A stretch of 64,000 nucleotides of DNA, from contig NZ_JAAIYO010000001.1 of the NCBI RefSeq assembly GCF_014930455.1, positions 248,001 through 312,000 of the forward strand, given 5' to 3'. A program made the position numbers and the translations under genes. Origin of the DNA: Corallococcus soli (GTDB taxonomy: Bacteria > Myxococcota > Myxococcia > Myxococcales > Myxococcaceae). Below, piece by piece: positions 49,903-58,045 of this stretch (position 1 is its first letter; the number at the start of each line of letters is the position of its first letter). The notes below the pieces were generated by a model. It saw only the letters and a list, made by a program, of their open reading frames with translations. It searched no databases and was not told the origin of the DNA.

Positions 49903-52368
49903 TCAGGCCTTGGGCGGCGTCTCGAAGCGGCCCGCCAGCGACGCGAGCACGGCGAGCAGCTCCACGGGCTCCACGGGCTTGGGCACGTGGCTCTGGAAGC
50001 CGGCGCGCAGCACGCGGGTGCGGTCCTCCGAACGGGCGTACGCGGTGATGGCTACGGCCGGGGTGCGGCCTCCATCATCGGCGGGCAGCGCGCGCACGCG
50101 TTCAATGAAGCCGTAGCCATCCGTGCCCGGCATGCCGATGTCGGACACGAGCACGTCCGGCCGCTCCGCCTGGAGCACCTGGAGTCCCTCGGCTGCGGAG
50201 CCGGCGGTGAGCACGAGCGCGCCGCTGTCCTCCAGGAGGGTGCGCAGGAGCTCGCGCGCGTCCTCTTCGTCATCCACCACGAGCACGCGCACGCCGTTCA
50301 GCTCCGGCGGGTGGACGGGCTCCGTGCCCGGGCCGGACGGGAGCCGGAGGGGCGGGGGCAGGGCGGCGTCGCGGTGCTGGATGATGGACAGGGGCAGGCG
50401 CACGGTGAAGGTGGCGCCCTGTCCGTCGCCCGCGCTGGCGGCGGCGACGGTGCCGCCGTGCATCTCCACGAGGTGGCGCACGATGGACAGCCCCAGGCCC
50501 AGGCCGCCCGTCTTGCGGGTGGTGCCGCTGTCGGCCTGGCGGAAGCGCTCGAAGACGTGGGGCAGGAAGGCCGGGGAGATGCCCTGGCCGGTGTCCGCCA
50601 CGGTGAGCTCCACGAGCGAGGCCCGCCGCTCCACCACCAGCCGCACGCGGCCGTTGCGCGGGGTGAACTTCACCGCGTTGGAGAGCAGGTTCCACACCAC
50701 CTGTTGCAGCCGCTGCGGGTCGCCCATGACGCTGCTGGAGGAGTCCACGGTGGCCTGCACCTGGACGCCGCGCGCGTCCGCGGCGGGGCGCACGGATTCG
50801 AGCGCCTGCTGCACCACGGTGGATAGGTCCACCGGCTCCACGTCCAGCTTGAGCTTGCCGGACACGATGCGGCTGACGTCGAGCAGGTCCTCGATGAGCT
50901 GGCCCTGCGCGCGGGCGTTGCGCTCCATGGTCTCCAGCGCGCGCGCGCGGCGGGACTCGGGCAGGTGGCCGGTGCGCAGCAGCTGCACCCAGCCCAGGAT
51001 GGCGGTGAGCGGGGTGCGCAGCTCGTGGCTGACGGTGGCGAGGAATTCGTCCTTGAGCTGGTTGGCCACCTCCGCCTCCTGGCGCGCGGCGCTTTCGCGG
51101 GCGAGCAGGGCTTCGCGCTCCACCTCCGCCTGCTTGCGGTCGGAGATGTCGATGACGCTGCCGATGTAGCCCAGGAAGCGCCCGTCGGCGTCGAAGCGGG
51201 GCGAGCCGCTGTCGACGGCCCAGCGGTACACGCCGTCCCCGCCGCGCAGCCGGTAGTCCAGCCGGAAGGGCTGGTGGTGCGCCGTGTTGGCGGCGAGGAA
51301 GATGTCCCGGGTGCGCTCCATGTCGTCGGGATGGATGGCGGCGAGCCAGCCCAGGCCCAGGCCCTGGACCTCCGTCTGTCCGGTGAAGGCGTACCAGCCC
51401 CGGTTCATGTACGTCGTGAAGCCTTCCACGTCCGTCACCCAGAGCATGACGGGGGCATGGTCGGCCATGTTGCGGAAGCGGGCCTCGCTCTCGCGCAGGG
51501 CCTCCAGCAGGCGCTCGCGCTCCTGGGTGGCGGCCCTCGCCTCGGTGATGTCGCGCGCGGCGGCGTAGATGAGGCCCTTCTCGGGCAGGGGGCGCGCGGC
51601 CCAGGCCAGCCACTTGTAGCCGCCGTCCTTGCAGCGGTAGCGGTTCTCGAAGCGCAGGGTGGGCAGGCCCTGGGACAGCTTGAGCAGCTCCTGGAGGGTG
51701 GCCTCCCGGTCGTCGGGGTGGACGAGGTCCAGGAAGGGGAGCCGGTACAGCTCCGTCTCACTCCACCCGAGCACCTGGACGAAGTGCGCGTTCACGCGCT
51801 TGAAGTACGCGTCCGTGCCCGCGATGCAGAACATGTCCGGGGACAGCTGGAAGAAGCGCTCGCGGTCCTCCGCCTCCTTGCGGCTGCGCTCGGAGCTGTC
51901 GAGTTCGAACTGGGACACGGCCCCGCGCTGCGCGGTGTCGATGCGGGTGCAGAGCGCGCGCACCTGCGACAGGGGCACGTGCAGGTCCTGCTGTTCGGCG
52001 CGCTCCAGGATGCAGTCGCGCAGCAGCCCGTACTCACGGGCCACCAGGGTCACGTCACAGCCCAGGCGCAGCCGCTGGCGGCCGTGGGCCTCGGAGGCCT
52101 CGTTGTGGTAGCTGGGACGGAAGTCATCGCCGGAGTCCTTTTCGACGACGTCGTGGAGCTCGTCGATGAAGGCGGGCAGGGCGTCGACGAGCTGCTCCCG
52201 CGTCAGCCGGGATGCGCCGGGCAGCAGGGTCATGCGGGCCAGCCAGTCCTCCACGAGGGCGTCGCGGTCGAACTCCAACAGGTCCGCGAGGGACAGGGAC
52301 ACGCCGCCCTCCGTGGGCGTCCGTCCGTCCGCCGAAGGACCCCGCTCCTGTGAACCCGAGGAGGACAT
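49903..52368 (-). CDS. Hybrid histidine kinase: RsbRD_N, two PAS, kinase, receiver
   Basis: An 821-residue soluble hybrid kinase. An RsbRD_N-like domain (about 25-155) is followed by two PAS/PAC domains (about 175-300 and 305-425), each with a HPDD motif. HisKA with His448 in VSHELRTPL follows, then HATPase_c with NLLSNAVKF and GLGLGLSIV, and a C-terminal receiver (about 695-815) with Asp743 in VSDIGMPG. It shares its N-terminal domain type with the kinase at 38250-40307. The start is ATG 52368; upstream sequence in frame is unlikely to be translated. Confidence 0.92.
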   Translation of the reverse strand: MSSSGSQERGPSADGRTPTEGGVSLSLADLLEFDRDALVEDWLARMTLLPGASRLTREQLVDALPAFIDELHDVVEKDSGDDFRPSYHNEASEAHGRQRLRLGCDVTLVAREYGLLRDCILERAEQQDLHVPLSQVRALCTRIDTAQRGAVSQFELDSSERSRKEAEDRERFFQLSPDMFCIAGTDAYFKRVNAHFVQVLGWSETELYRLPFLDLVHPDDREATLQELLKLSQGLPTLRFENRYRCKDGGYKWLAWAARPLPEKGLIYAAARDITEARAATQERERLLEALRESEARFRNMADHAPVMLWVTDVEGFTTYMNRGWYAFTGQTEVQGLGLGWLAAIHPDDMERTRDIFLAANTAHHQPFRLDYRLRGGDGVYRWAVDSGSPRFDADGRFLGYIGSVIDISDRKQAEVEREALLARESAARQEAEVANQLKDEFLATVSHELRTPLTAILGWVQLLRTGHLPESRRARALETMERNARAQGQLIEDLLDVSRIVSGKLKLDVEPVDLSTVVQQALESVRPAADARGVQVQATVDSSSSVMGDPQRLQQVVWNLLSNAVKFTPRNGRVRLVVERRASLVELTVADTGQGISPAFLPHVFERFRQADSGTTRKTGGLGLGLSIVRHLVEMHGGTVAAASAGDGQGATFTVRLPLSIIQHRDAALPPPLRLPSGPGTEPVHPPELNGVRVLVVDDEEDARELLRTLLEDSGALVLTAGSAAEGLQVLQAERPDVLVSDIGMPGTDGYGFIERVRALPADDGGRTPAVAITAYARSEDRTRVLRAGFQSHVPKPVEPVELLAVLASLAGRFETPPKA

Positions 52369-52462
52369 GAGTGTCTTAAGAGGTGCGGATGCCCACCGCG
52401 CGATGCAGGGGCCGACAACCGGGCCCCTGCCGCCTCGCATGCCGGGCAGCCAGGGGAAGAAC

Positions 52463-53173
52463 CTACAGCCCCAGGTACATGAGCAGCGCGCCCAGGTCCG
52501 CGTCGGACAGGGCCTCCGTGCTGTAGGGAGGCATGTTGCCGCCCACGCCGAAGAACTGACCGTGCCGCACCTTCTCGATGACCACCCGCGCGTGCGGGAT
52601 GCCCGGGAAGAGCCGGTCGTAGTCCTGCGTCACCTCCGGCAGCACCGACGCCAGCTCCGTCAGCCGCCCCTCGCCCGTGTGCGTGGCGCCGTGGCAGTTC
52701 TGACAGGCCGCCCGGTACACCGCTTCACCGCGCGCGGTGTCGCCCCGGGGCACGTCGTCGATGTCCTTCACCACCGTGAACGGCAGCGCGGGCGCCTGCG
52801 CGTCCGGGCTGATGCTCGCCAGGTATTCGTACAGGGCCCGGGAGCGCGGGTCCTCCGGCTCCAGCTTCGTCACCCCGCGCATGAAGTTCACGTAGCAGAA
52901 GTTCACCGCGTCCAGCAGGTGCGTCTCATAGCCGCCCCACCAGCTGGGCCGCGCCGTCACGTTGTGCAGCGTGTAGCCGGAGTCGATGCGCCCCGCGGGC
53001 GCCTGCGGCGTCGTCGCGTGACACGTCGCGCACGAGAAGCGGTTGAACGTGCTCTCCGACAGCCGGGCGTCCTGGAACAGCTGCTCCCCGAAGTCCGCCG
53101 CGGCCACGGGCTCCTCGCCCCCGTCGCAGCCGGACAACACGCCCACCAGCAGCACCGCCACGCCCCACTTCAT
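52463..53173 (-). CDS. Diheme cytochrome c lipoprotein
   Basis: A 236-residue lipoprotein (lipobox LSGC, Cys16) with two haem c sites, CATCH (48-52) and CQNCH (157-161), and a possible Met ligand in GGNMPPYS. It would carry electrons at the cell envelope. It is the last gene of a four-gene unit; its ATG overlaps the upstream stop by four bases. It is shorter than MauG/MbnH-type diheme enzymes, which I considered, so simple electron transfer is the safer call. Confidence 0.85.
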   Translation of the reverse strand: MKWGVAVLLVGVLSGCDGGEEPVAAADFGEQLFQDARLSESTFNRFSCATCHATTPQAPAGRIDSGYTLHNVTARPSWWGGYETHLLDAVNFCYVNFMRGVTKLEPEDPRSRALYEYLASISPDAQAPALPFTVVKDIDDVPRGDTARGEAVYRAACQNCHGATHTGEGRLTELASVLPEVTQDYDRLFPGIPHARVVIEKVRHGQFFGVGGNMPPYSTEALSDADLGALLMYLGL

Positions 53174-54411
53174 GGCGCCCCCCGCAGCAGGCTCACCGAG
53201 TCCGGGAAGATGCCCATCCGCACCGTGGACACCACCGTGCCCTCCGCCACGTCCACGACGTGCAGCGTGCCCGGGCCCACGTGGTCGCCCTCGCACACCA
53301 CCAGCCCGTGGCGCTCATCCGGCGTCAGCATGAACTGGTGCACGTTGAGGCAGCCCGCCTGTGACAGCTCCAGCGTGCGCTGCACCGTGGACGTCGCCGG
53401 GTCGATGACCGCCACCGCGTCCTCCTGCTGATAGGGCAGGTACAGCGTGCGCCCGTCCTTCGTGAACGCGCCGAACATGGGCGACCCGCGCAGGTACACC
53501 GTGCGCTCCGGGTTCATCGCGCGGGTGCCGGGCTCCAGCACCTGCACCTGACGGCTGGCCAATGAGCTGACCCACACGTCCCCCGTCGTGGGCGACACCG
53601 TGAGCGCGTAGGGCTGGTGACGCGGGTTCGTCGCGGTGCCCGCCCCGGGCGCCACCTTCACCCGCGTCACCGGCGTGCCCTCCGTCGCCAGGTCCACCAG
53701 CGCGACCTCGTCCGACCAGCAGGCCACGTAGGCCGTGCGCTCATCCAGCGACAGGCGCACCGCGTGCGGCGCCGGGCACACCTTCACGCGCGCCTTCACC
53801 TCCATCGTCTCCGCGTCGAGGATGGCCAGCCGCGCCATCATCTCCTCCTCCGTGCCGCCCTTGCGCGCCACGTCCGCGATGCGCAGCAGGTCGAAGTGCG
53901 TCTGGTACAGCGTGCGCCCGTCCTCGCTGACGATGACGTCGCCCGGGTTGCGGTCCACGCGCGCGGAGGCCACCAGCCGGTTGTCCTTCGCGCTCAGCTT
54001 CAGGCAGTACCCGTCCGCCGTGCCGGTGCCGTGCGCGCCGTGCGGGCCGGAGCCTCCGCCGGGCACGTAGTTGGAGATGCCCACGTAGTAGTAGTCCCCC
54101 GTGGGGGACACCGCCGTGTGGTGCGGCCCCTCCAGCTCCACCGGGTTGAGCCCCACCGGCACGCGCGCCAGCTCCCCCCAGTCCGGCTGGCCCAGGCCGG
54201 CCAGGTCCAGCAGGCTCACGGAGTCATCCAGGCTGTTGGTGACGAGCAGCCGCCCCTCCGGCCCCGGAGGCGCCACCGTCGTCCCACCCCGCGTCCACGG
54301 CGGCTCTTCCGCGTACGTCAGCGCGGGCACCTCCAGCGGGTCCTCCGCCTTCGTCCCCTCGCCGTCGCACGCGCCCAGCGCCAGCGCGCAAAGCCAGGCG
54401 GCGCGCCTCAC
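53170..54411 (-). CDS. YVTN-type beta-propeller lipoprotein
   Basis: A 413-residue lipoprotein (lipobox ALGAC, Cys15) with about seven propeller blades of the YVTN/lactonase-like kind, for example LLVTNSLDDSVSLLDL, AYVACWSDEVALVDL and LYLPYQQEDAVAVIDP. Propellers of this type often sit beside cytochromes in amine and alcohol dehydrogenases, but no quinone-forming residues are identifiable here. The start is GTG with a four-base overlap with the upstream gene. Confidence 0.82.
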   Translation of the reverse strand: MRRAAWLCALALGACDGEGTKAEDPLEVPALTYAEEPPWTRGGTTVAPPGPEGRLLVTNSLDDSVSLLDLAGLGQPDWGELARVPVGLNPVELEGPHHTAVSPTGDYYYVGISNYVPGGGSGPHGAHGTGTADGYCLKLSAKDNRLVASARVDRNPGDVIVSEDGRTLYQTHFDLLRIADVARKGGTEEEMMARLAILDAETMEVKARVKVCPAPHAVRLSLDERTAYVACWSDEVALVDLATEGTPVTRVKVAPGAGTATNPRHQPYALTVSPTTGDVWVSSLASRQVQVLEPGTRAMNPERTVYLRGSPMFGAFTKDGRTLYLPYQQEDAVAVIDPATSTVQRTLELSQAGCLNVHQFMLTPDERHGLVVCEGDHVGPGTLHVVDVAEGTVVSTVRMGIFPDSVSLLRGAP

Positions 54412-55043
54412 CGTGCACCCGCCACGCCGAAGGACACCGGCTGTGCCAGCGTGTACGGCCCCTCCGTGATGCGGTTCTGCACCAGGTACGCGCTCATCAC
54501 CTGCACCGACAGCGCCTGTCCCGCCGCGTCGCGCAGCGTCCGCCAGGAGCCGTCATCCAGTTGCCACTGCAACTCCGACGTCAACATCTCCAGCGGGCAC
54601 TGCCGCCCCGGCACCTGCACCTTCACCCAGTACAGGTCCCCCGTGTACGGCGGCAGGTGCGCCTGCGCCGCGGGCAGCACCAGGCCGCCAAGCCACGCGA
54701 GCACCGACCGGCCTGTCTCACGAGGCCGCGCCACCGGAGAGGGCCCGCCGCGCCCCGGGCGCTGCAACGACGCGCGCAGGGGCGAGGTCCACCGCCACAG
54801 CGGCGCGGCTTCGCTCGTCACGTACGTCTGGCCGGCTTCGGGCGACAGGAGCGTCACCGCGCGCGAGCTGTCCTGGGGCCTGCTCCGCGCATCCACCAGC
54901 GTGCGCCACGCTTCGTCCGTGGCACCGCCCGCGTACAGCGGCTCTCCGCACTCGGGCTTCGGGTCCTCGTCGTCACCGGAGCAGGCCGTCAGGCCGAGCA
55001 GCGCGACGGCGGCGGTGCTCCAAAAGAGGGAGGGCGTCTTCAT
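54408..55043 (-). CDS. Lipoprotein of unknown function in exported redox-like operon
   Basis: A 211-residue lipoprotein (lipobox LTAC, Cys21). It has an acidic start, a possible beta-sandwich core (SPEAGQTYVTSEAAPLWRW, YWVKVQVPGRQC), and an odd internal hydrophobic and arginine-rich stretch (about 95-130). No family is recognised. It overlaps genes on both sides by four bases, so it is surely part of the same machine. Confidence 0.7.
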   Translation of the reverse strand: MKTPSLFWSTAAVALLGLTACSGDDEDPKPECGEPLYAGGATDEAWRTLVDARSRPQDSSRAVTLLSPEAGQTYVTSEAAPLWRWTSPLRASLQRPGRGGPSPVARPRETGRSVLAWLGGLVLPAAQAHLPPYTGDLYWVKVQVPGRQCPLEMLTSELQWQLDDGSWRTLRDAAGQALSVQVMSAYLVQNRITEGPYTLAQPVSFGVAGAR

Positions 55044-56395
55044 GGTCGGGAGTCCTCGCGCCGCCGGCCGCGGCGCCACAGGGGGAGGAGGAAGAGGAGC
55101 GGCAGCAACGCATTCGCGGGCGCGGCGGCGCAGCCCGACTTGGGGGGCGCCTTGGGGCCATCACCGTCGGGGGACGTGCCCGCATCGCCGGGGGGCACCC
55201 CGCCCGCGTCGACCGGGGACGTGCCTGCGTCGGACGCGCCGGCGTCGGGGATGCCGTCCGGGTAGAGCGGCGCGCCAATCGTCTCCGCGAGCTGGGGCCA
55301 GCGCGAAGGGCACAGCTCCCGCACGGGCGTGCCCGCCGGGCACTGGTGGCTGCCCTGGATGTCCTCCAGGCTGAAGAGGGGCTCCCAGGTGGTGCCCTCG
55401 TCATGGCTGCGCGCCAGCGACCAGTCATGGAGCCAAGGCGAGCCGCAGCCGTAGATGACCTCCCCCACGCGCGTGACGCACGCGTTGCCGGTGGGCAGGG
55501 TGAGCTTGTCGAAGGCCCCGCCCGCCTGGCTCCGGAAGAAGGAGTTGTAGGTGGACACCCATGCGGTGCCCCCGTCGGCGGAGACGTCCATGTTGACGAA
55601 GACGTCGTCGATGCCGCTGCCCGAGCGGTCGGTGAAGGTGCGCCCGCCGTCCGTGCTGTGGAGGATGTGCGTGGCGCCCTGCGCGGACACGCGCGCCCAG
55701 ACGCCCAGCGCGTCCACGGGGTCCGTCGCCGTCACCACGAAGTCGAACGGACGCACCAGCGCTGGGAACACCTGCGGCGCCTCCTCCCACGTCTCGCCCG
55801 CGTCGTCGCTGCGGAACAGGTACATGCGCGTGGAGTCGGACCCGGACACGTAGAGCGTCGTCGGGGCGGCGGTGGACACGCGCACCGACGAGAAGAGGAT
55901 GCCCTCGCGTTGCAGCGGAAGCGCCCGCCACGTCTCCCCGCCGTCGTCGGAGCGGAACAGCCCGTTCTTCGCCGCCGTGGAGCGCCCCGTCGCCGCGTAC
56001 AGCACCGCGTCGTCGGTGGGGTGCACGGCGAGCCCCGTCACCCAGGTGTCCTTGAAGCCGGGGTGCGCGGACCACGAACACGCGCCGTCCTTCGAGCGCA
56101 ACAGCGCGTTGCCGGTGGCCGCCAGCAGCTCACCCTGCTCGCGCCAGACGAAGGACTCCGGACGCCAGCCGCCATACCCCATGGCATCCGGACACACCCA
56201 CCTCCACGTCTGACCGCTGTCGCGCGAGATGACCGCGCCGAAGGTGGCCCCCACGAAGAAGTCCTCCGGGTGCCCCCGCCGCAGCGTGACGTTGGACGTC
56301 TCCGGAAGGCCCGCGTGCGCCTGGGCCAGGCCCGGGCCCAGCAGGAAGGCCAGCGCCACCGCCCTCCATCCCCCCGTGATTCGTGGCTTCTTCAT
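55040..56395 (-). CDS. Secreted BNR-repeat protein with MYXO-CTERM-like tail
   Basis: A 451-residue exported protein. The signal peptide ends at AQA (about residue 26). The body is a propeller of BNR/YCF48-like repeats with Asp-box motifs such as SRDSGQTW, SDDGGETW, SDDAGETW and STDGGRTF. The C-terminus has an Asp/Pro/Gly linker, a conserved-looking SGC, a hydrophobic helix and RRGRRR, which fits the MYXO-CTERM surface-sorting signal of myxobacteria. It is the first gene of the four-gene operon and diverges from rpmG. Its cargo role is unknown. Confidence 0.85.
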   Translation of the reverse strand: MKKPRITGGWRAVALAFLLGPGLAQAHAGLPETSNVTLRRGHPEDFFVGATFGAVISRDSGQTWRWVCPDAMGYGGWRPESFVWREQGELLAATGNALLRSKDGACSWSAHPGFKDTWVTGLAVHPTDDAVLYAATGRSTAAKNGLFRSDDGGETWRALPLQREGILFSSVRVSTAAPTTLYVSGSDSTRMYLFRSDDAGETWEEAPQVFPALVRPFDFVVTATDPVDALGVWARVSAQGATHILHSTDGGRTFTDRSGSGIDDVFVNMDVSADGGTAWVSTYNSFFRSQAGGAFDKLTLPTGNACVTRVGEVIYGCGSPWLHDWSLARSHDEGTTWEPLFSLEDIQGSHQCPAGTPVRELCPSRWPQLAETIGAPLYPDGIPDAGASDAGTSPVDAGGVPPGDAGTSPDGDGPKAPPKSGCAAAPANALLPLLFLLPLWRRGRRREDSRP

Positions 56396-56570
56396 CGCGA
56401 CGCTCCGGGGTTGGACCCCATGCACCCCCCAGGATAGCTCCCGGCCCGGCCCTGCATAGCGACCCTTGCGTTTTGAACGCGCCCGGCCCGCGCCCAGCCT
56501 CCCCGCGTGGAGGGCGGGCGACCGGGGCCTCCCACGGGGACCTCCAGGGACGGACGGCGCGCTGATGCCC

Positions 56571-56599
56571 TTGCGATGTTAATGCAACTTGGTTACAAA
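56571..56599 (+). promoter_or_regulatory. Candidate promoter of the rpmG operon
   Basis: TTGCGA (56571-56576) and TACAAA (56594-56599) are separated by exactly 17 bases. Each matches the housekeeping consensus at four of six positions. The site lies in an AT-rich patch in otherwise very GC-rich DNA, about 30 bp before the rpmG start. Confidence 0.5.
56577..56589. promoter_or_regulatory. Candidate Zur-type operator in the rpmG promoter spacer
   Basis: TGTTAATGCAACT contains the palindrome GTT-AATGC-AAC and resembles the core of known proteobacterial Zur boxes (TGTTA...TAACA type) at most positions. It lies between the -35 and -10 elements, where a bound repressor would block RNA polymerase. 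The reading depends on the operon being zinc-responsive, which its gene content suggests. Confidence 0.4.
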
Positions 56600-56627: not shown

Positions 56628-56792
56628 ATGCCCAAGGGCAACCGCACCATCATCCACCTCGTGTCCTCGGCGGGGACCGGCTTCACCTACACGACGACGA
56701 AGAACAAGCGGAAGTCGCAGGAGAAGCTCCAGAAGAAGAAGTACGACCCGAAGGTGCGCAGGCACGTGCTCTTCGTGGAGGGCAAGCCGTGA
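56628..56792 (+). CDS. rpmG: Ribosomal protein L33, cysteine-free (zinc-independent) form
   Basis: A 54-residue L33 beginning [14 protein letters not shown] and ending HVLFVEGKP. It has no cysteine at all, so the zinc ribbon of the metal-binding L33 form is absent. Bacteria often express such a form under zinc shortage to replace the zinc-containing copy and release zinc. CTGGAG seven bases upstream supports ATG 56628. Its stop overlaps the start of the COG0523 gene, linking it to metal supply. Confidence 0.93.
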
Positions 56793-58045
56793 AGCCCTCG
56801 CGTGCGAAGCAGGACGCGCGGCTGCCGGTGACGGTGCTGTCGGGGTTCCTGGGGGCGGGGAAGACGACGCTGCTCAACCACGTGCTGAACAACCGCGAGG
56901 GCCTGCGGGTGGCGGTCATCGTCAACGACATGAGCGAGGTGAACATCGACGTGAAGCTGGTGAAGGGCGGGGGCGCCGCGCTCAGCCGCGTGGACGAGAA
57001 GCTGGTGGAGATGTCCAACGGCTGCATCTGCTGCACGCTGCGCGAGGACCTGCTCCAGGAGGTGGCCCGGCTGGCGGAGGCGAAGCGCTTCGACTACCTG
57101 CTGATTGAGTCCACCGGCATCTCCGAACCGCTGCCCGTCGCGGAGACCTTCACCTTCGAGGACGCGGAGGGCCAGAGCCTGTCGGCGCTGGCGCGGCTGG
57201 ACACGATGGTGACGGTGGTGGACGCGTTCAACTTCCTGCGGGACTGGGATGCGTCGGAGGCGCTGTCCGAGCGCGGGCTGGCGCTGGCGGAGGAGGACGA
57301 GCGCACGGTGGTGGACCTGCTGGTGGAGCAGGTGGAGTTCGCGGACGTGCTGGTGCTGAACAAGACGGACCTGGTGGACGCGGACGGGCTGGGGCGGTTG
57401 CAGGACGTGCTGCGCCGGCTGAATCCGCAGGCGCGCATCGTGCTGTCGGAGCGGGGCCAGGTGCCGCTGGCGTCGGTGCTGGACACGCGCATGTTCGACT
57501 TCGAGCGCGCGAGCCGCGCCCCGGGTTGGTTGAAGGAGCTGCGCGGCGAACACGTCCCGGAGAGCGACGCGTACGGCATCCGCAGCTTCGTCTTCCGCAG
57601 CCGCGTGCCGCTGCACCCCAAGCGCTTCTGGGACTTCGTGCATGGCAGTTGGAAGGGCGTGCTGCGCAGCAAGGGTTTCTTCTGGTTGGCGACGCGCATG
57701 GACGTCACCGGCCTGTGGGCGCAGGCGGGGGGCGCGTGCAGCTTCGAGCCCGCGGGCATCTGGTGGTCCGCCATGCCGCGCGAGGACTGGCCCGAGGACC
57801 CGGAGCTGCGCGCCGAGCTGGAGCGCGACGTGGAGGCCGGACCCTACGGGGACCGGCGCCAGGAGGTCGTGTTCATCACCCGGGACGCGGACCACGAAGC
57901 GCTGGCGAAGGAGCTGGAGCGCTGCCTGCTCACCCCCACGGAGCTGGCGAAGGGGCCGAAGGCCTGGGCGCGGATGAGGGATCCGTTCCCGGAGTGGCGC
58001 GTGGCGTCCTCGGAGGAAGAGGCCCCCCAGGAGCGTGCCGGATGA
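56789..58045 (+). CDS. COG0523 (CobW/ZigA-like) GTPase metallochaperone
   Basis: A 418-residue G3E-family GTPase. Walker [10 protein letters not shown] is at 19-27, the metal-binding CICC motif at 79-82 and the guanine-specificity NKTD near 190; a CobW C-terminal domain follows. Family members deliver zinc or other metals to client proteins using GTP. It starts at GTG 56789, overlapping the rpmG stop by four bases, with GGAGGG upstream. Being in one unit with a cysteine-free L33 and DUF1826 argues for a zinc-limitation role rather than cobalamin synthesis. Confidence 0.93.

Follow-up and report, generated by a model that had tools for sequence, protein, structure and literature searches.

We report a four-gene operon in Corallococcus soli, found in a 64,000-nucleotide stretch of its genome (here called the window; NCBI RefSeq assembly GCF_014930455.1, contig NZ_JAAIYO010000001.1, positions 248,001 to 312,000). 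The operon runs on the minus strand from position 56395 to position 52463 of the window and encodes an exported Asp-box propeller (BNR), an orphan lipoprotein (LIP2), a seven-bladed propeller lipoprotein (YVTN; protein P0003), and a diheme c-type cytochrome lipoprotein (CYT). It is confirmed as real and as more than a chance arrangement, because its genes recur together in many genomes and the 4-base overlaps between them are kept. Its constant unit is the propeller and a c-type (mostly diheme) cytochrome; BNR, and sometimes LIP2, can be dispensed with. We tentatively read it, at somewhat short of even confidence, as an envelope redox unit, in which a metal-centred propeller enzyme would exchange electrons with its diheme cytochrome, copper being the likeliest metal.

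Results

The BNR gene (55040 to 56395, minus strand) encodes 451 amino acids ending in a MYXO-CTERM-like C-terminal tail and is an optional member of the set. LIP2 (54408 to 55043, minus strand) encodes 211 amino acids, with a predicted immunoglobulin (Ig)/fibronectin-III (FNIII)-like domain at residues 60 to 211. YVTN (53170 to 54411, minus strand) begins with GTG and encodes 413 amino acids, and CYT (52463 to 53173, minus strand) encodes 236, with haem motifs CATCH at residues 48 to 52 and CQNCH at residues 157 to 161. All four reading frames are uninterrupted. An earlier examination of the letters of the window (the original prediction) had described four exported genes joined by three 4-base overlaps, and both the coordinates and the overlaps were confirmed in the sequence (ATGA at BNR/LIP2, GTGA at LIP2/YVTN, and ATGA at YVTN/CYT). 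Export signals were likewise found on all four products, as lipoboxes in LIP2 (LTAC), YVTN (LGAC), and CYT (LSGC) and as a hydrophobic N terminus, judged by eye, in BNR. Models and motifs agree with the labels of BNR propeller, YVTN propeller, and diheme cytochrome given at that time: the BNR repeats pass their Pfam model (43.6 bits; cut-off, 27), YVTN passes TIGR02276 (44.9; cut-off, 27.85), and the cytochrome c domains of CYT pass Pfam Cytochrome_CBB3 (54.9; cut-off, 27). The BNR tail aligns to the C termini of MYXO-CTERM-anchored NCBIfam models (e.g., NF045638; E value, 1.3e-6; residues 364 to 447), with a score far under that model's own cut-off.

Profile searches of 195 Myxococcota genomes were run with LIP2 (E value, 1e-4) and YVTN (E value, 1e-25). 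LIP2 matched in 75 genomes, of which 69 belong to the same family as the window and six do not; YVTN matched in 80, namely, all LIP2 genomes (75/75) and five others (G028, G029, G057, G058, and G059). A contig scan with the window's LIP2 protein, which reaches close relatives, gave 15 loci from Corallococcus, Citreicoccus, Archangium, and one Myxococcaceae metagenome-assembled genome. In total, 61 loci (30 + 20 + 11) were examined, of which one is the window's own place and two (L044 and L100) coincide; many are near relatives, so the counts are not independent. By script, 59 propeller places were found in these loci. The propeller is followed within 700 bases by a CYT homologue in 52 of the 57 places with at least 150 bases downstream (51 of 56 distinct places), and LIP2 lies within 700 bases upstream in 48 of the 57 places with at least 600 bases upstream.

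In-frame 4-base start/stop overlaps were sought in 76 loci (L002 to L066 and L097 to L107, some places twice) and are kept at 62/64 YVTN/CYT, 60/63 LIP2/YVTN, and 33/53 BNR/LIP2 junctions, counts that stand without a control set of other junctions. Where BNR directly precedes YVTN (L097, L098, L099, and L101), the two genes overlap in all four cases; LIP2 lies between them in the remaining 43 of 47 BNR/YVTN pairs. The overlaps suggest coupled translation of the genes.

The four families had been proposed as one set. They co-occur elsewhere as a conserved neighbourhood, with overlaps kept far beyond the window, and therefore that proposal survives the comparison; what did not stand is the set as an obligate one, since the propeller and cytochrome stay together in places that lack BNR or LIP2. 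All four families are present in permuted order (BNR-YVTN-LIP2-like-CYT) in L101, a genome of another family. BNR is present in L047 and L058 to L066 and was not detected in any of L048 to L057, some of them in the window's own family (for L051, within the ∼290 bases upstream of LIP2 that were covered). A second operon, with BNR, YVTN, and CYT but no LIP2, is found in three Corallococcus-genus genomes (L097 to L099), and in L059, ∼2.6 kb separates LIP2 from YVTN. In two of the five places without a downstream CYT homologue (L102 and L106), another two-domain c-type cytochrome lies directly upstream of the propeller. In L106, this cytochrome is part of a run on one strand (L106:8053-12227) that encodes a cupredoxin-like protein (P0006), a barrel-like protein (P0007) that has a single CTACH, a two-domain diheme cytochrome (P0008), and a divergent propeller. 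P0006 and P0007 match no family model, and their cupredoxin and barrel labels were read from the sequence; the run perhaps constitutes an outer-membrane redox system of its own.

Plasmid protein searches returned 24 records with partial propeller matches (∼26 to 33% identity among the 15 listed) and, for the cytochrome, a single partial match; none covers 80% of the query. The original prediction knew of no described system with this gene set, and none is described among the matches listed in the open-licence literature, a scope outside which subscription papers and preprints lie.

AlphaFold2 modelled P0003 (13 sequences) as a confident seven-bladed propeller (mean predicted local distance difference test [pLDDT], 83.4; predicted TM score, 0.85), and the protein ends on the propeller's closing strand (residues 403 to 409 of 413). 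Compared with known structures (Foldseek and VIA-align), the model matches over the whole propeller both nitrous oxide reductase (NosZ; Z, 33.7 to 35.6; 307 to 324 residues; 13 to 16% identity) and thiocyanate dehydrogenase (TcDH; Z, 31.3 to 32.2; 321 to 323 residues; 14 to 16% identity); NosZ His129/130 mutants appear among its structural matches. A profile search of PDB sequences with the propeller returned seven at an E value of 0.01 (an S-layer YVTN protein, hydrazine synthase beta, three YncE-type proteins, NirF, and Lp49), and TcDH, NosZ, and AztD were not among them.

Eighteen propeller sequences with 40 to 77% identity to P0003 were aligned (alignment A3). Of its columns, 47 are invariant, among them H97, H98, H124, H127, H172, H216, and H358, together with D158, D174, D404, C212, C231, C354, and C373. 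Invariance is found at seven of the 11 histidines of P0003 versus 40 of its 402 other positions (Fisher P value, 3.7e-5, a guide only, given shared descent). The predicted strand list puts H97, H98, H216, and H358 at inner-strand starts; a B-C loop holds H124 and H127, and a B strand ends at H172. In the propeller topology, inner-strand starts and B-C loops form the same face, and the seven invariant histidines are predicted to lie on one face of YVTN. One motif occurs twice, as C212-x3-H216-x14-C231 in blade 4 and C354-x3-H358-x14-C373 in blade 7; both copies are found in 18/18 sequences of A3 (spacing of 12 to 16 allowed), and their Cys pairs probably form disulfides.

Eight more divergent or second-copy propellers were aligned (L097, L101, L103, L107, L102, L104, L105, and L106). 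The first four retain the seven histidines (L103 being incomplete, with its C-terminal part missing). The last four form a divergent subfamily, in which position 98 is Glu, 124 is Glu, and 127 is Met in 4/4 (the alignment of the 124 to 127 loop being uncertain), 172 is Cys in 3/4 and His in L102, and 404 is not Asp in 4/4. This subfamily keeps H97, H216, and all four Cys in 4/4 and H358 in 3/4. The joint change of positions 98, 124, 127, 172, and 404 suggests that they belong to one spatial site.

In CYT, the candidate haem ligands Met98 and Met214 are invariant among the sequences with letters there (24/24 and 22/22). Their invariance suggests, if the ligation holds, that both haems are Met-ligated and electron-carrying rather than those of a MauG-like peroxidase. 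It speaks against an electron carrier that CYT passes the gathering score of Pfam CCP_MauG (29.8 versus 25.6), a match of residues 25 to 57 to model positions 3 to 33 of 149, at the first haem. A match of CYT to a well-known free-standing enzyme would have counted against the original prediction, and CYT exceeds no NCBIfam enzyme cut-off (TIGR04039, 16.6/362.85; TIGR03791, 15.2/443.85; NF040606, 20.6/150). MauG membership was rejected on these cut-offs. Searched alone against PDB sequences, CYT gave nothing better than an E value of 0.024.

At an E value of 0.01, Pfam has no family for LIP2 or for 14 relatives (0/15). The model of LIP2 contains the predicted Ig/FNIII-like domain (mean pLDDT, 75.6), for which the best fold match (Z, 8.7 over 98 residues) is closely followed by many Ig/FNIII domains, with no confident relative; the first 59 residues are barely covered by the comparison. 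Invariant residues in the 15 sequences are D43, E44, H129, T134, W167, A185, and G195.

Upstream of the operon, on its strand, lies a conserved block (56430 to 56461) with the sequence end CGCTATGCA, the position of which was checked. It is kept with small differences in 11/11 Corallococcus-group regions, with or without zinc genes, and is likely the operon's own promoter region. Beyond it, divergent from the operon, are an L33 paralogue (56628 to 56792) and a ZigA-type GTPase gene (56789 to 58045; 639.2 bits; cut-off, 600) that overlaps it. Upstream of the L33 paralogue is an element (56577 to 56597) that we assign, as an assumption, to Zur; with the L33 paralogue and the GTPase, it presumably forms a typical zinc-saving set. 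A Zur consensus, used as a pattern, finds one place elsewhere in the same genome, with 3 mismatches. The element is conserved in L003 and L004, partial in L002, and not seen in L005 to L010 and L016 (∼260 bases upstream taken). Besides the window, ZigA was detected beside the operon in just L003 and L004 of the 76 loci (L017 to L046 hold ∼1.5 kb on each side of LIP2 and may miss it). A metal-handling role drawn from the adjacent zinc genes is thus not borne out, and the operon as a fixed part of a zinc regulon was rejected, the adjacency and the element being confined to the closest loci. We do not file the operon under zinc, because the element is not seen in the upstream bases taken from most of the relatives aligned while the operon's own block stays; the zinc genes beside it are a local accident.

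Downstream, a hybrid sensor kinase gene (49903 to 52440, same strand, with PAS and receiver domains by eye) starts 22 bases past CYT in its longest frame. Homologues lie downstream of the operon in 8/15 contig-scan loci, all Corallococcus, at varying gap sizes. The second BNR-YVTN-CYT operon in L097 and L098 follows a large polyketide synthase-like gene (by eye) and is possibly part of its cluster. In L047 (3428 to 8475), two tandem BNR-type genes, one of 1252 codons, precede the operon, and in L053, the set adjoins cbb3 oxidase genes and a NicO-like gene (under the Pfam cut-off).

Discussion

The earlier idea of an envelope redox system is partly supported; the equal production of the four products and the single complex that it proposed stay suggestions. 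Gene order, conservation, the overlaps, the predicted fold, the haem motifs, and the invariant residues are observed, and we infer metal binding by the histidines, copper as the metal, a redox reaction, translation of the genes in step, and roles for LIP2 and BNR. In the mechanism we propose, the YVTN lipoprotein would hold a metal centre on its top face through the ring of histidines, and this centre would oxidise or reduce a small substrate. CYT, translated in step with YVTN, would link it to the periplasmic cytochrome pool, passing electrons in one direction or the other. LIP2 would be an Ig/FNIII-like accessory lipoprotein, for which docking or maturation is a guess, and BNR would be a surface-anchored propeller serving as an optional partner. 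We favour copper since it is the metal of the His-pair propellers described so far (TcDH, methanethiol oxidase, and SELENBP1), and by analogy, YVTN may work like those copper propellers that act as dehydrogenases or reductases together with a cytochrome. It is possible, with more doubt attached, that YVTN represents a previously undescribed class of cytochrome-coupled metallo-propeller oxidoreductases. Its site would consist of the His pair, the HGxH loop, and the two disulfide-bracketed histidines of blades 4 and 7; the enzyme, anchored in the myxobacterial envelope, would be translated in step with a diheme cytochrome of its own, and in another subfamily, a Glu/Met/(His or Cys) variant of this site would operate with other cytochromes.

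TcDH is described as an exported seven-bladed propeller with a His pair and a c-type cytochrome as its likely electron partner (PMC9456337 and PMC6504805), with an active site of Lys103, His135, His136, Gln156, His206, Glu288, Asp314, His381, His437, His482, His528, Asp529, and Arg544 (PMC6504805). YVTN shares the export, the seven blades (predicted), the His pair, the c-type cytochrome, and an end-to-end fold match at the level of the whole propeller; unlike TcDH, it has no Cus-type copper genes recognised in its operon. Adjacent active-site histidines also occur in the copper propellers methanethiol oxidase (His89/90; PMC5739008) and SELENBP1 (His73/74; PMC10362175). The methanethiol oxidase operon, mtoX-SCO1-mauG, places a His-pair propeller with a diheme cytochrome-like gene (PMC5739008), as does the operon described here. 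Unlike it, the YVTN operon has no SCO1, CYT is under the cut-off of the MauG model TIGR03791, and P0003 scores 12.2 bits against SBP56 (PF05694; gathering score, 34). The NosZ propeller carries a ring of seven His ligands. YVTN resembles it in its predicted seven-bladed fold and in the number of its invariant histidines and differs in that P0003 has no C-terminal CuA cupredoxin domain (Pfam rows and model). Against L-NosZ (NF052460), P0003 scores 24.7 bits (cut-off, 700), and no protein in 193 Myxococcota genomes exceeds that cut-off. Membership in L-NosZ, SBP56, AztD, and cytochrome cd1 was rejected, as P0003 failed the family models and cut-offs.

Several observations weigh against a copper redox enzyme. 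Among the fold matches of the P0003 model, an archaeal S-layer YVTN propeller ranks first (Z, 39.6; 294 residues), and the predicted propeller fold by itself therefore proves nothing about function; lactonases tie with NosZ in the ranking, and the match is generic. Model residues 1 to 38 and 117 to 125, the latter including H124, are under a pLDDT of 50, and the putative histidine cluster derives from topology, not coordinates. The profile comparison with 12 Myxococcota NosZ proteins is weak (probability, 33%) and pairs H216 with NosZ SPHG, while a low-confidence full-length version puts HH97-98 near the His178 blade, not at His129/130. A structural or, as in AztD, a zinc-binding role is conceivable for the invariant Cys and His. 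Pfam and NCBIfam scans reveal no dedicated copper chaperone in the operon. No CYT homologue follows the propeller in L052, L104, or L105, and in L053 (G011), the propeller gene is in pieces and the first Cys is absent from haem motif 1 of CYT; LIP2 and CYT remain. SELENBP1 mutants in His73 or His74 lose activity with copper content unchanged (PMC10362175), and a pair of this kind therefore does not necessarily ligate copper.

The alternatives differ in what they make of these residues. It is rather doubtful that the propellers act at the surface in binding or as scaffolds, with structural His and Cys and an ordinary co-transcribed cytochrome carrier. In favour of this, many YVTN and BNR propellers have no enzymatic activity, an S-layer protein heads the fold matches, and LIP2 resembles an Ig/FNIII binding domain; such a role sits poorly with seven histidines invariant on one predicted face, with several positions replaced jointly in the divergent subfamily, and with linkage to a cytochrome through a conserved overlap in distant genomes. 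That YVTN is a metal-binding or metal-transfer protein like AztD, not an enzyme, and that the cytochrome serves another step, we consider unlikely. AztD is also an exported metal-binding propeller, with zinc ligands that include His99 and His102 (conserved Gly100 between them), Asp104, and His218 and with a Cys214-Cys231 disulfide (PMC6689063); H124-G-x-H127 and C212-x3-H216...C231 of YVTN recall its HGxH and C-x3-H...C features, and the window operon adjoins ZigA. AztD is reported with eight blades, versus the predicted seven of YVTN. Against this reading stand a profile comparison with two AztD-like proteins at a probability of 1.3% and the AztD model (NF038015), which gave P0003 15.3 bits (cut-off, 400) and was exceeded in 0/189 genomes, with no match in G000. 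We know of no cytochrome partner for AztD, a zinc carrier would leave the diheme partner unexplained, and the ZigA adjacency is confined to two other loci.

A propeller that binds a tetrapyrrole (haem d1-like) and pairs with a cytochrome in the manner of NirN, NirF, or cytochrome cd1 is very improbable. The theme of a propeller with c-type haem is common to these systems, which hold Foldseek ranks 2 to 6 for P0003 (NirF, NirN, and a cd1 nitrite reductase), and Cytochrom_D1 (PF02239) is the top Pfam row of P0003, at 22.5 bits, under the gathering score of 25.5. NirJ, of haem d1 synthesis, is over its cut-off in 1/189 genomes (G183, itself a carrier of the set, but not G000) versus 75/195 with the set. 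We hold it equally improbable that the operon belongs to a zinc-limitation (Zur) response with the divergent L33-ZigA genes; their divergent position and the Zur-like element favour this, and against it, the element is missing from the ∼260 bases taken upstream in 7/8 added loci, and ZigA was detected beside the operon beyond the window in L003 and L004 alone.

His-bound copper propellers carry out rare, important reactions (nitrous oxide reduction and thiocyanate and methanethiol oxidation). If YVTN is another branch of them, one propeller face would have been re-used for different metal sites, and the myxobacteria, among which we expect Myxococcus xanthus to carry the set, would gain a respiratory or detoxifying reaction not yet described.

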